Assembly (NCBI GenBank): GCA_016788065.1
Contig: JAEUTI010000090.1
Location: 1 to 59,798 of the forward strand
DNA: 59,798 nucleotides
Source of the DNA: Bacteroidia bacterium
Lineage (GTDB): Bacteria; Bacteroidota; Bacteroidia; AKYH767-A; OLB10
Reading direction: 5' to 3'
A program made the translations under genes and the position numbers. Positions 49,894 to 53,386 of this stretch are shown here, piece by piece. Positions within the stretch are counted from its first letter, which is position 1; every line of letters begins with the position of its first letter. The notes under the pieces were generated by a model. It did not search any database and was not told the DNA's origin. It saw only the letters and a list, made by a program, of their open reading frames with translations.

Positions 49894-50028
49894 ATCAAAA
49901 TTTAAAAAATGCAACATCCCACATTAAAATAGTCGTTTATACATTTGTGCGAAAAATAGCTGGTACCTTTAAGTAAAGAGACAACCTTTTCTTAACATTG
50001 ACTTAATATCCCTGTAAAAGGCTCGCCG

Positions 50029-50036
50029 TACTTTTG
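50029..50036 (+). promoter_or_regulatory. -7 element (TACTTTTG) of the envelope operon
   Basis: TACTTTTG matches TAnnTTTG and lies 17 bases before the ATG of the small ORF at 50054, which supports transcription of that ORF. Confidence 0.5.
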
Positions 50037-50053
50037 CATTGAAATAAAACTTC

Positions 50054-50182
50054 ATGCATAAAAATATTTTTTCAATTGCAGAAACTTTACTCCATCCCCT
50101 ATGGAGCCTTTTAAATAAATTGCTGTTATTCAATTGGCGTAAAAACAGTGCAGGATTTCATTACCGATACAAATTCAAATGA
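50054..50182 (+). CDS. Small 42-residue protein, translationally coupled to the phosphoesterase gene
   Basis: A 42-codon frame begins with ATG shortly after the promoter-like element. Its TGA stop overlaps the ATG of the phosphoesterase gene (ATGA at 50179-50182), a common sign of translational coupling. The predicted peptide has a hydrophobic middle (AETLLHPLWSLLNKLLLFNW) and a basic end (RKNSAGFHYRYKFK). It could be a small membrane-associated protein or a leader peptide that couples translation. A hairpin lies within it (ctccat at 50090-50095 pairs with atggag at 50101-50106). No family is recognised, and it could be chance; the overlap and the basic, amphipathic character are the main support. 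Confidence 0.5.
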   Translation: MHKNIFSIAETLLHPLWSLLNKLLLFNWRKNSAGFHYRYKFK

Positions 50183-51048
50183 AAGAAGAGACCAAATCCG
50201 GAAAAAGAAAAGTTGAACTGGTAGTAATTTCGGATGTGCATTTAGGCACTTATGGTTGTCACGCAAAAGAGCTGGTACGTTACATGAAGAGTATAAAACC
50301 GAAAACGGTAGTACTCAATGGCGATATCATAGACATCTGGCAATTCAGCAAGGGATTTTGGCCTAAGGCACACATGCAGGTGGTGCGACAAATAATTGCG
50401 TGGGCAACCAAGGGCACAAAAGTATACTACATCACCGGGAATCATGATGAGATGTTGCGCAGGTTTACCGGTTTTGAACTGGGAAATCTGAAAATCGAAA
50501 ATAAATTATTACTCGATCTGGATGGTAAAAAAGCCTGGATTTTCCATGGTGATGTGTTTGATGTTACCATGCAACATGCGAGATGGCTCACCAAACTGGG
50601 CTCTGTTGGTTACGATATGTTGATCCTGATTAATGCAGCATGCAACTGGACATTACAAAAATTAGGAAAACCTAAAATTTCACTCTCACAAAAAGTGAAG
50701 AATAGTGTCAAACAAGCAGTGAGTTTCATTAATAAATTCGAAGACACCTGTGCCGAGATTGCCATTGATAACTCTTACGATTATGTGGTGTGTGGACATA
50801 TTCATCATGCCGAAATAAAAAATATTGAAAAGGAAAATGGCAAAGTGATGTATCTGAATTCAGGAGATTGGGTTGAGAGTTTAACTGCGCTTGAATACCA
50901 TCATGGTGAATGGACACTTTTCAAATATAAAGAACATCAGTTTGCAGAAGAAGTTACAGAAGATGATGATGACTCCATGATATTCGCAGAGAAGTCAACC
51001 ATATTCAATAACCTCTTAAAAGAAATAAATCAATTTACTTCTCCATAA
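50179..51048 (+). CDS. Metallophosphoesterase (LpxH-like, UDP-2,3-diacylglucosamine diphosphatase type)
   Basis: The 289-residue protein has the full calcineurin-like metallophosphoesterase set: VVISDVHLGTYG, VLNGDIIDIW, ITGNHDEML, AWIFHGDVFD and VVCGHIHHAEI, all of which supply ligands for two metal ions. The FxxGD(I/V)xD-like spacing and the size are close to LpxH, which cleaves UDP-diacylglucosamine to lipid X in lipid A synthesis, and to related LpxG/LpxH2-type proteins. A hydrophobic segment around 135-150 (SVGYDMLILINAACNWTL) could touch the membrane. The next gene, a glycosyltransferase, starts 3 bases downstream. Given the context, a role in an envelope glycolipid is plausible; canonical LpxH may be encoded elsewhere. 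Confidence 0.87.
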   Translation: MKEETKSGKRKVELVVISDVHLGTYGCHAKELVRYMKSIKPKTVVLNGDIIDIWQFSKGFWPKAHMQVVRQIIAWATKGTKVYYITGNHDEMLRRFTGFELGNLKIENKLLLDLDGKKAWIFHGDVFDVTMQHARWLTKLGSVGYDMLILINAACNWTLQKLGKPKISLSQKVKNSVKQAVSFINKFEDTCAEIAIDNSYDYVVCGHIHHAEIKNIEKENGKVMYLNSGDWVESLTALEYHHGEWTLFKYKEHQFAEEVTEDDDDSMIFAEKSTIFNNLLKEINQFTSP

Positions 51049-51051
51049 CAA

Positions 51052-52041
51052 ATGAAAATTCTTTACGGGATTCAGGGAACAGGAAACGGGCATCTGACCA
51101 GAGCAATGGAACTGATTCCACATTTACAACAAAAGGGAGATGTTGAAATTCTCATAAGCGGTGAGCAATACGATCTGCCATTAACCATTGAACCAAACTA
51201 TCGCATGAAAGGTTTGTATTTTGTGTTTGGGAAAAATGGGGGCATCGATTTAAAAGCAACTTTTAATAAAATCAATTCTTTCCGCTTTATAAAAGAAATC
51301 AGAAATTTCCCAATTGAAAAATACGATTTAGTTATAAGCGATTTCGAACCCGTTTCAGCATGGGCATGCAACCGGGCAAATAAAAATTGTATCGGTCTAA
51401 GCAATCAGGCTGCTACACTGCATCCTCTTGCGCCCAAACCTAAAACATTCGACCCATTAGGAAAATTAATTCTGGAATACTATGCCCCTACTACCGTTTG
51501 CTATGGTTTTCATTTTAAAAAATTAAGTCCCCAGATATTTACTCCCATCATCCGCAAGGAAGTCAGGGCCTTGAAGCCGGAAAATAACGGACATTTTACC
51601 GTATATTTGCCTTCCTACGATGACACGAAGATTATAAAACATCTGAAAAAATTTGATCATCTGAAATGGCAGGTATTCTCCAAGCATTGTAAAAAAGCGT
51701 ACAAAGTGAAAAACATTCAGGTACATCCTATTCAGGGACAACTTTTTATGAACAGCATCGCTTCCGCATCGGGAATAATCAGCAATGCCGGTTTTGGAGC
51801 TACTTCTGAAGCCCTCTTTCTGGGAAAGAAATTGTTGGTCATTCCAATGAAAAACCAGTATGAGCAACAATGTAATGCTGCAATGTTAAAAAGCATGGGA
51901 GTGGCAACCATGAAGAGTATGAAATCGAAACATCATGCTATTTTAGAAGAATGGGTTGATGCCGGTCAAGTAGTGAAAGTTGATTATAAAGATCAATCGG
52001 CTGCCATTGTGGATACGATTCTAAAAAATCATAAATTCTGA
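51052..52041 (+). CDS. MurG-like glycosyltransferase (GT28-type)
   Basis: The 329-residue protein has the GT-B fold pattern of family 28-type transferases. It opens with LYGIQGTGNGHLTRAMELI, the glycine-rich loop that is expected to hold the acceptor or phosphate, and includes YDLVISDFEPVSAWACNR. Its C-terminal half has the donor-binding block ISNAGFGATSEALFLGKKLL and NQYEQQCNAAML. Such enzymes transfer a sugar from a nucleotide donor to a lipid or saccharide acceptor at the cytoplasmic face. MurG itself is longer and has other motifs, so this is a different member. It lies 3 bases after the phosphoesterase and 13 bases before the GH1 gene, so the three probably act on one pathway. Confidence 0.85.
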   Translation: MKILYGIQGTGNGHLTRAMELIPHLQQKGDVEILISGEQYDLPLTIEPNYRMKGLYFVFGKNGGIDLKATFNKINSFRFIKEIRNFPIEKYDLVISDFEPVSAWACNRANKNCIGLSNQAATLHPLAPKPKTFDPLGKLILEYYAPTTVCYGFHFKKLSPQIFTPIIRKEVRALKPENNGHFTVYLPSYDDTKIIKHLKKFDHLKWQVFSKHCKKAYKVKNIQVHPIQGQLFMNSIASASGIISNAGFGATSEALFLGKKLLVIPMKNQYEQQCNAAMLKSMGVATMKSMKSKHHAILEEWVDAGQVVKVDYKDQSAAIVDTILKNHKF

Positions 52042-52054
52042 TTCACTTTTGCCT

Positions 52055-53386
52055 ATGTCGACTGAAAACCCCGGGTTTAAATGGGGCGTTTCCACCGCTG
52101 CATTACAAACTGAAGGCGCTTTTGATAAAGATGGCAAAGGCCTATCTGTGTGGGATGAATTTGCCAAACGAAAAAGAAAAATCGGTGATAAAAGCAATCC
52201 TTCAGTAGCAACCGATTTTTACAATCGCTATCCCGAAGATATTGCTATTCTCAATCAACTAAAAATTCCGAATTTCCGCTTTTCTGTTAGCTGGCCAAGG
52301 GTTATACCAATGGGCACAGGACAATCCAATGAAAAGGGACTCGATTTTTATGACCGGTTGACTGATCATTTGCTTGAAAATAACATTGTCCCCTGGACAA
52401 CGCTTTACCACTGGGATTTACCTCATGAATTACAAAAACGAGGTGGTTGGTTCAACCGAGATATTTTAAATTGGTTCGGTGAATATGTGCATCTGGTTAC
52501 TAATCGACTCGGTGATCGCATCAAAAACTGGATGGTACTGAATGAACCCATGGCATTTACCGGAGCCGGATATCTGTTGGGTGTACATGCGCCGGGAGAA
52601 AGAGGTATAGGAAGTTTCGTATCAGCTGCTCACCATGCCGCATTGGCCACTGCTGCAGGCGCTTCAATCATTCGTAGCAATGTAGCTAATGCCTATGTAG
52701 GATCTACATTTTCACAATCATGGGTAGAGCCACATTCTTCGGGCATTAAAGATCAACAGGCAGCACAAAGAGTGCATGATATGCTGAACTTGTTTTTCAT
52801 ACTTCCTGCAACCGGACACCCTTACCCGTTGAAGCATTTAAAATTCCTGAATAAAATTGAGAAGTTCATCAAGCCCGGCGACGAATCGAAATTAAATGCC
52901 AACCTCGATTTTGTCGGGGTACAAACTTACACCAGGGAAGTAATAAAATATAGCTGGACCGTGCCATTCATCAAAGCATCTATGGTAAGTGCTATCAAAA
53001 GAAAGCAACCATACACACAAATGGGCTGGGAAGTTTGTCCCGAATCTATTTATCATGTTTTAAAAAATCTGCAATCTGTTCCCGGACTTCCACCCATAAT
53101 CATTACCGAAAATGGGGCAGCTTTCGCAGATGAAATAAATAATGACGGAATAATTAACGACACCGAAAGGATCGCATACCTCGACAATCATATTCAACAA
53201 ATGCAGCGTGCTATGAAAGAAGGCGTTGATGTACGAGGCTATTTCGCATGGTCATTAACCGACAATTTTGAGTGGGCCGAGGGCTATCGTCCGCGCTTCG
53301 GTCTGGTACATATTGATTATGAAAATAATTTAAAAAGAACCATCAAAGAAAGCGCCAAATGGTACGCGGGTAGGATTAAGGATTAA
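52055..53386 (+). CDS. Glycoside hydrolase family 1 (beta-glucosidase-like)
   Basis: The ATG at 52055 (MSTENPGFKWG) gives 443 residues. The protein has both GH1 catalytic glutamates: Glu164 in WMVLNEPMAF (acid/base) and Glu352 in IITENGAAF (nucleophile). It also has the N-terminal FKWGVSTAALQTEGAF, where most members have AAYQxEG, and FSVSWPRVIP, LYHWDLPHELQ and DNFEWAEGYRPRFGLV. There is no signal peptide, so it works in the cytoplasm. It is preceded by an LpxH-like enzyme and a glycosyltransferase; some GH1 proteins act as transglycosidases on lipids, and that possibility should be weighed beside plain hydrolysis. The last codons (RIKD) and the stop lie in a GGATTAA repeat. Confidence 0.92.
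   Translation: MSTENPGFKWGVSTAALQTEGAFDKDGKGLSVWDEFAKRKRKIGDKSNPSVATDFYNRYPEDIAILNQLKIPNFRFSVSWPRVIPMGTGQSNEKGLDFYDRLTDHLLENNIVPWTTLYHWDLPHELQKRGGWFNRDILNWFGEYVHLVTNRLGDRIKNWMVLNEPMAFTGAGYLLGVHAPGERGIGSFVSAAHHAALATAAGASIIRSNVANAYVGSTFSQSWVEPHSSGIKDQQAAQRVHDMLNLFFILPATGHPYPLKHLKFLNKIEKFIKPGDESKLNANLDFVGVQTYTREVIKYSWTVPFIKASMVSAIKRKQPYTQMGWEVCPESIYHVLKNLQSVPGLPPIIITENGAAFADEINNDGIINDTERIAYLDNHIQQMQRAMKEGVDVRGYFAWSLTDNFEWAEGYRPRFGLVHIDYENNLKRTIKESAKWYAGRIKD

Follow-up and report, generated by a model that had tools for sequence, protein, structure and literature searches.

A 42-codon open reading frame (ORF) at the start of a probable lipid-remodelling operon is probably a real small gene in the 59,798-nt stretch of Bacteroidia DNA analysed here (the window). 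It lies directly before a gene for a phosphoesterase that resembles the phospholipase C PlcP, and we regard its place within a Pho-regulated PlcP-type operon as highly likely. That the ORF is translated into a functional small protein is likely, and our whole model, in which a genuine small gene forms the first cistron of a Pho-regulon operon and its product is accessory to PlcP, has about an even chance of being right. What has been established by computation is the ORF itself, the promoter elements, a box that other phosphate genes share, the order of the genes, the family to which the enzyme belongs and the protein-level selection acting on same-position small ORFs of relatives.

The small ORF and the genes behind it

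The features of the locus were as follows.

49992 to 50009, forward strand: putative Pho box, TTAACAT TGAC TTAATAT, two 7-bp half-sites with an 11-bp period (7-4-7 direct repeat)
50029 to 50036, forward strand: Bacteroidota-type −7 box TACTTTTG (TAnnTTTG), 17 nt before the small-ORF ATG
50054 to 50182, forward strand: small ORF, putative first cistron, 42 codons with an ATG start; product predicted as a single helix with a hydrophobic centre and a basic end
50179 to 51048, forward strand: PlcP-like metallophosphoesterase of the LpxH fold, 289 aa (Pfam Metallophos)
51052 to 52041, forward strand: glycosyltransferase (Glyco_trans_1_3); the nearest NCBIfam model is MJ1255/VC2487, under its cut-off
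52049 to 53386, forward strand: GH1 glycoside hydrolase, 7 nt 3' of the glycosyltransferase gene

Translation of 50054–50182 (+) gave MHKNIFSIAETLLHPLWSLLNKLLLFNWRKNSAGFHYRYKFK, which runs from an ATG through 42 codons with no internal stop, so the unlisted ORF pointed out in an earlier note on this DNA is present as described. The other sequence features which that note had claimed were also found: the TGA of the small ORF and the phosphoesterase ATG at 50179 share the letters ATGA, and the peptide has a hydrophobic centre and a strongly basic end, with a net charge of +6 (K/R minus D/E). The phosphoesterase frame contains a stop codon 39 nt 5' of its own ATG. This stop and the difference in frame show that the small ORF is separate, and they rule it out as an N-terminal extension of the phosphoesterase. 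AlphaFold, run on the single sequence, predicted one helix over residues 3–40 (mean pLDDT 84.9), and the helical amphipathicity of the peptide was not above that of shuffled sequences (268/2000). No Pfam or NCBIfam match was obtained for the peptide, nor any NCBIfam match for two related peptides. When the leader was shuffled 5000 times with dinucleotides preserved, an ATG-started ORF of at least 38 codons appeared near its start 119 times (2.4%); the length by itself is therefore only mildly unusual and is weak proof of a gene. This frequency counts in favour of a chance ORF in a conserved leader, with no functional product in the window's genus, a reading we consider improbable in view of the comparative results given below.

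The frame, whose loss in close relatives the earlier note had named as evidence against a gene, was intact in one other genome of the same genus (G001; its sequence is the same as that of record L003). Only 1 of the 129 nt differed there, the change was synonymous and the peptide was identical, at 93.3% identity between the two genomes across 6.5 kb. One change in 129 nt has a probability of 0.0013 at the background rate of the 6.5 kb, but of 0.126 at the low rate of the phosphoesterase gene itself. With a single synonymous change, purifying selection on the window ORF itself cannot be demonstrated, and the untranslated stretch 50029–50053, with 0 of 25 differences in L003, is as unchanged as the small ORF, which again is compatible with a chance ORF in a conserved leader. 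Clear matches to the window peptide were found in 2 of 24 genomes of the family, and strict sequence homologues were confined to the genus. Five weak matches in other family genomes (E 0.01–0.08) were taken as chance; two lay inside long frames and three contained stops (for L108, the first 100 bases were read).

The phosphoesterase showed 39.6% identity (E 6e-58) to a PlcP-like protein of S. meliloti (CP090106.1, LZK74_26085, annotated as UDP-2,3-diacylglucosamine diphosphatase), compared with 22.7% to a second LpxH-like protein encoded in the same genome as the window. We take LZK74_26085 to be the characterised PlcP. The scores of the window enzyme were below both curated NCBIfam cut-offs for LpxH (46.7 vs 190.35 bits and 54.8 vs 134 bits), and its 25 best PDB matches were all LpxH entries. 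Judged from sequence, the enzyme is best called PlcP-like, and phospholipase C activity is predicted. The genome's second LpxH-like protein (L220, C3) reached 70.7 of 190.35 bits, also below the cut-off, and may be the one that actually serves in lipid A synthesis. CP090106.1 (L229) is labelled S. meliloti pSymB and has a length of 3.7 Mb, which we take to be more like a chromosome than pSymB. A related LpxH-like gene of Mitsuaria sp. 7 was found directly before ppk1 (L230:2438-5504), which again points towards phosphate metabolism under a lipid A annotation.

In several bacteria, PlcP breaks phospholipid down to diacylglycerol, which is then glycosylated by glycosyltransferases (PMC8528852). 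According to PMC4796936, plcP often adjoins glycosyltransferases, and phosphorus starvation induced it in all isolates that were tested, among them the flavobacterium Dokdonia MED134. Across the loci that we collected from relatives, a same-strand glycosyltransferase match was present 3' of plcP in 172 of 208 with at least 700 nt downstream, and it was no more than 1200 nt from the start of the plcP match in 157. The loci with longer flanks had a same-strand glycosyltransferase match in 81 of 83 cases and a GH1 match, likewise on the same strand, in 22 of 83. The GH1 gene is probably part of the same operon in the window, and the order of small ORF, plcP-like gene, glycosyltransferase and GH1 fits PlcP-type lipid remodelling. 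Such an operon would probably enable the bacterium to reclaim phosphate from the lipids of its own membrane.

Promoter and probable Pho box

The promoter-like element that the earlier note had seen shortly 5' of the ORF corresponds to the TAnnTTTG −7 box, while the Pho-type box and the PlcP-type lipid-remodelling operon had been missed by it. With the −7 box 17 nt 5' of the ATG, the transcript would start approximately 10 nt before the small ORF. In Bacteroidota promoters a TTG −33 element is expected at canonical spacing; none was evident at that spacing here, and the nearest TTG checked ended 28 nt before the −7 box. A generic sigma-70 scan was uninformative (3 sites vs 1.9 expected). The putative Pho box differed at 1 of its 18 nt in L003.

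A search pattern for box plus −7 element was built from the window site (TTAAYA-N5-TTAAYA-N15..30-TANNTTTG). It had three matches in the 4.26-Mb genome, the window included by construction, and 0 in the reversed control. One of the two other matches was before a response regulator and histidine kinase pair (phoBR-like), followed by a SixA-like protein and polyphosphate kinase, and the other was before a pstB-phoU pair. In addition, pstS (over its NCBIfam cut-off), which is followed by pstC- and pstA-like genes, was preceded by an array of repeats of this half-site, without the same −7 box. Except for pstS, the names of the phosphate genes were read by eye from translations. The candidate Pho boxes elsewhere in the genome were located as follows.

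L226, 1401 to 1445: before the phoBR-like genes with ppk
L227, 4224, reverse strand: before pstB-phoU
L228, 1705 to 1750: before pstS

A looser half-site pattern, run over 18.5 kb of the genome, also had two minus-strand matches in L226, at 3948 and 4380, neither of which is followed by an obvious phosphate gene; the half-sites alone are therefore not specific. The matches at phosphate-type genes indicated that 49992–50009 is very probably a Pho box, and the small ORF would then very probably open a phosphate-starvation operon as its first cistron.

The box was also scored before plcP in other genomes, after loci with less than 330 nt upstream and loci identical in the last 150 nt had been dropped. 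A score of at least 13 was reached in 27 of 194 de-duplicated plcP loci vs 0.3 expected in shuffles, and a score of at least 12 in 78 vs 9.2, counts which are not independent since the loci are related and the consensus was taken from the window. Loci of the Sphingobacteriaceae type, described below, made up 19 of the 27. The window site supplies a candidate Bacteroidota Pho-box sequence, and the candidate boxes listed above offer a starting point for a Bacteroidota PhoB motif.

Small ORFs ahead of plcP in other Bacteroidota

Of 395 genomes sampled across the class, 171 had a plcP match at E<=1e-60, and 117 of the 171 were examined by locus; an earlier set of relatives had been the best 80 of 392. 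The upstream regions of 211 loci were listed. The plcP orthologues were repeatedly preceded by an ORF of 30–50 codons, in which a hydrophobic stretch often leads into an SPFK or SPYE motif. Many plcP loci had no such ORF, including some with another gene directly upstream. In another genus of the window's family, the ORFs at the same position gave a pN/pS of 0.17 (five genomes, 10 pairs); in the g6a group of the same family the value was 0.36 for one pair, in which synonymous change was saturated (pS 0.95). Three further groups gave 0.22 (six pairs), 0.18 (one pair) and 0.24 (one pair). Indels were avoided by using the first 32 codons in the SPFK group and 26 codons of the N-terminal part in group '37'; the Mucilaginibacter copies, being of unequal length, contributed no value here. 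The comparison of synonymous and nonsynonymous change that the earlier note had proposed gave 0.17–0.36 for the same-position ORFs of other genera and just one synonymous change for the window ORF.

The Sphingobacteriaceae-type ORF, of 30–39 codons, was present in 64 of 205 loci, mostly from Sphingobacteriaceae, as 59 distinct sequences, with a pN/pS of 0.20 over 597 pairs of equal-length copies within set difference ranges. Its members (in L012, L018, L123, L154, L168 and others, at about −190 to −65 of plcP) have a hydrophobic stretch and then an acidic SPYE/SPFE tail, and the one example searched had no NCBIfam match. The distance from the first base of the Pho-like box to that of the ORF was 49–64 nt in 50 of 51 measured cases; in the window it is 62 nt. 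A second leader ORF in Sphingobacteriaceae ('B') was not supported as a gene (pN 0.194 vs pS 0.188, 36 pairs), and its nearly equal values make it a negative control for the selection test. On these sequence comparisons, the small ORFs at this position in relatives are under purifying selection at the protein level.

An earlier training set had been chosen by eye. To remove that bias, a profile was started from 4 sequences of one clade; loci with less than 200 nt upstream and loci identical in the last 150 nt were left out. At convergence it contained 17 upstream ORFs with E<0.01 and 0 of 441 control ORFs. The 17 were the 4 seeds, 12 recruits directly before plcP and an apparently spurious one in the wrong place (L028, at −321). 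The members of this family have in common a hydrophobic stretch and, directly after it, SPFK-like residues. Comparison of the SPFK and SPYE types by hhalign gave a probability of 8.2% and an E of 0.004.

Homology of the window peptide to these small ORFs was not supported by profile, shuffles or hhalign. It was not recruited by the SPFK profile (E=5.3), and its score was equalled or beaten by 356 of 1998 shuffles, with training sets, picked from the set chosen by eye, that each lacked the nearest-relative group and the window peptide. It failed to align with the SPFK family in hhalign (probability 0.6%), the SPFK motif is absent from the peptide, and its best pairwise matches to other small ORFs were marginal (21 and 30 of 1000 shuffles, in 15 comparisons). 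The window ORF has the position of the SPFK class, as a first cistron between promoter and plcP, together with 30–50 codons and a hydrophobic helix; its placing in the class would be by position, size, promoter and helix prediction only.

This lack of sequence homology is also what a chance ORF in the window's genus would give. When a strong box was well upstream, a first-cistron ORF was found in 55 of 65 loci vs 6.3 expected, and another genus of the family has coding ORFs at this position, which both argue against chance. Outside the Sphingobacteriaceae type a first-cistron ORF at the tested distance was present in only 5 of 15 strong-box loci vs 1.3 expected, and two of these five are the window and its close relative, which leaves the chance reading some room.

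Proposed role of the small protein

Of the other explanations, a leader alone ranks first, followed by an independent Pho-regulated small protein and then by a chance ORF. As a leader, the ORF would be translated only to set the translation of plcP by coupling or re-initiation, with no function of the peptide itself. The ATGA overlap makes coupling likely and thereby keeps a leader role in play, and the predicted 5' leader is so short that ribosomes would meet the small-ORF ATG first. The same arrangement was seen elsewhere, with the stop of the small ORF overlapping the plcP start in L060, L147, L138 and L052 and lying 3–13 nt before plcP in L128, L133, L084 and L087; in addition, the peptide turns over fast between genera. 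However, purifying selection acts on the peptides of relatives and one motif recurs from genus to genus; the window leader has no unusual RNA fold (z=+0.5) and, as judged by eye, no regulatory codon run. We consider a leader without a working peptide unlikely, and the earlier note's second suggestion, a leader controlling translation, less likely than its first. A known RNA element was rejected, with no Rfam family above threshold in the window and the ordinary fold of the leader. A terminator-like hairpin at 50090–50106 was set aside as an attenuator (6 pairs; 1 found vs 0.4 expected).

The second alternative is a separate Pho-induced small membrane protein which shares the promoter and acts elsewhere, e.g., in phospholipid synthesis or phosphate transport. 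The Pho-type promoter would serve such a protein equally, and the small proteins differ in charge and type between lineages. On the other hand, adjacency to plcP recurs in distant loci, although candidates other than the window peptide were sought only upstream of plcP, and this recurrence suggests a role tied to PlcP. An independent role seems less likely still than a leader.

The best fit is the earlier note's first suggestion, a small membrane protein that works with the downstream enzymes: the pN/pS of 0.17–0.36 in relatives and the predicted helix agree with it. The membrane location, the physical partnership, the translational coupling and the Pho induction are our inferences. We give roughly balanced chances to the view that the small-ORF product assists PlcP. 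Under low phosphate, PhoB would bind the box at 49992–50009 and transcription would start about 10 nt before the small-ORF ATG. Ribosomes would first translate the small ORF, stop within the start codon of PlcP and initiate again, and both products would be made together. The 42-aa helix would lie in the inner membrane or on its surface and help the cytosolic PlcP-like phospholipase C, perhaps also the glycosyltransferase, for example by docking the enzymes on phospholipid or by passing on diacylglycerol.

A broader proposal, possible but doubtful in our judgement, is that the first cistron of Bacteroidota PlcP operons encodes a small membrane subunit of their own, which evolves fast and exists in two sequence types or more (SPFK, and the single-helix SPYE type of Sphingobacteriaceae). 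It would target or activate a phospholipase C whose attack on the cell's own membrane has to be limited to phosphate starvation; the window gene would be a divergent member. The passages cited here give no account of what keeps a cytosolic phospholipase C away from the membrane of its cell, or of what recruits it at low phosphate. If the model is true, a membrane protein encoded with PlcP would be a direct candidate for controlling its membrane access. Among the matches listed in a literature search of titles and abstract openings, no description of such a small gene was found. Neither Pfam nor NCBIfam was found to have a model for the class of small genes ahead of plcP, which may be a missing component of the lipid-remodelling system.

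Several known systems can be compared with this arrangement. Leader peptides for attenuation or coupling are encoded by a short ORF at the start of the transcript that overlaps the next start codon. The window has a short ORF at the predicted transcript start with the same overlap, but it differs by the protein-level selection in relatives and by the absence of an unusual RNA fold in the window. KdpF and CydX are small membrane subunits encoded with their enzyme. Like them, the window peptide is very short, and it is predicted to have a hydrophobic helix and to share an operon with an enzyme that acts at the membrane, but its putative partner is a predicted cytosolic enzyme. The window phosphoesterase shares the fold of LpxH (UDP-2,3-diacylglucosamine diphosphatase) but scores far below both cut-offs. 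The PlcP-Agt lipid-remodelling operons, for example those of Phaeobacter MED193, Pelagibacter HTCC7211 and Pseudomonas aeruginosa, differ from the window in several respects: the half-sites in the window are TTAACAT-like, its glycosyltransferase is of the Glyco_trans_1_3 family whereas Agt is assigned to the GT4 group in PMC9239053, and the window has a small first cistron before plcP and a GH1 gene after the glycosyltransferase. They are alike in the 7-4-7 direct-repeat layout of the Pho box, putative in the window, for which PMC8528852 gives the proteobacterial consensus CTGTCATNNNNCTGTCAT, and in the LpxH-like phosphoesterase beside a glycosyltransferase (PMC4796936).
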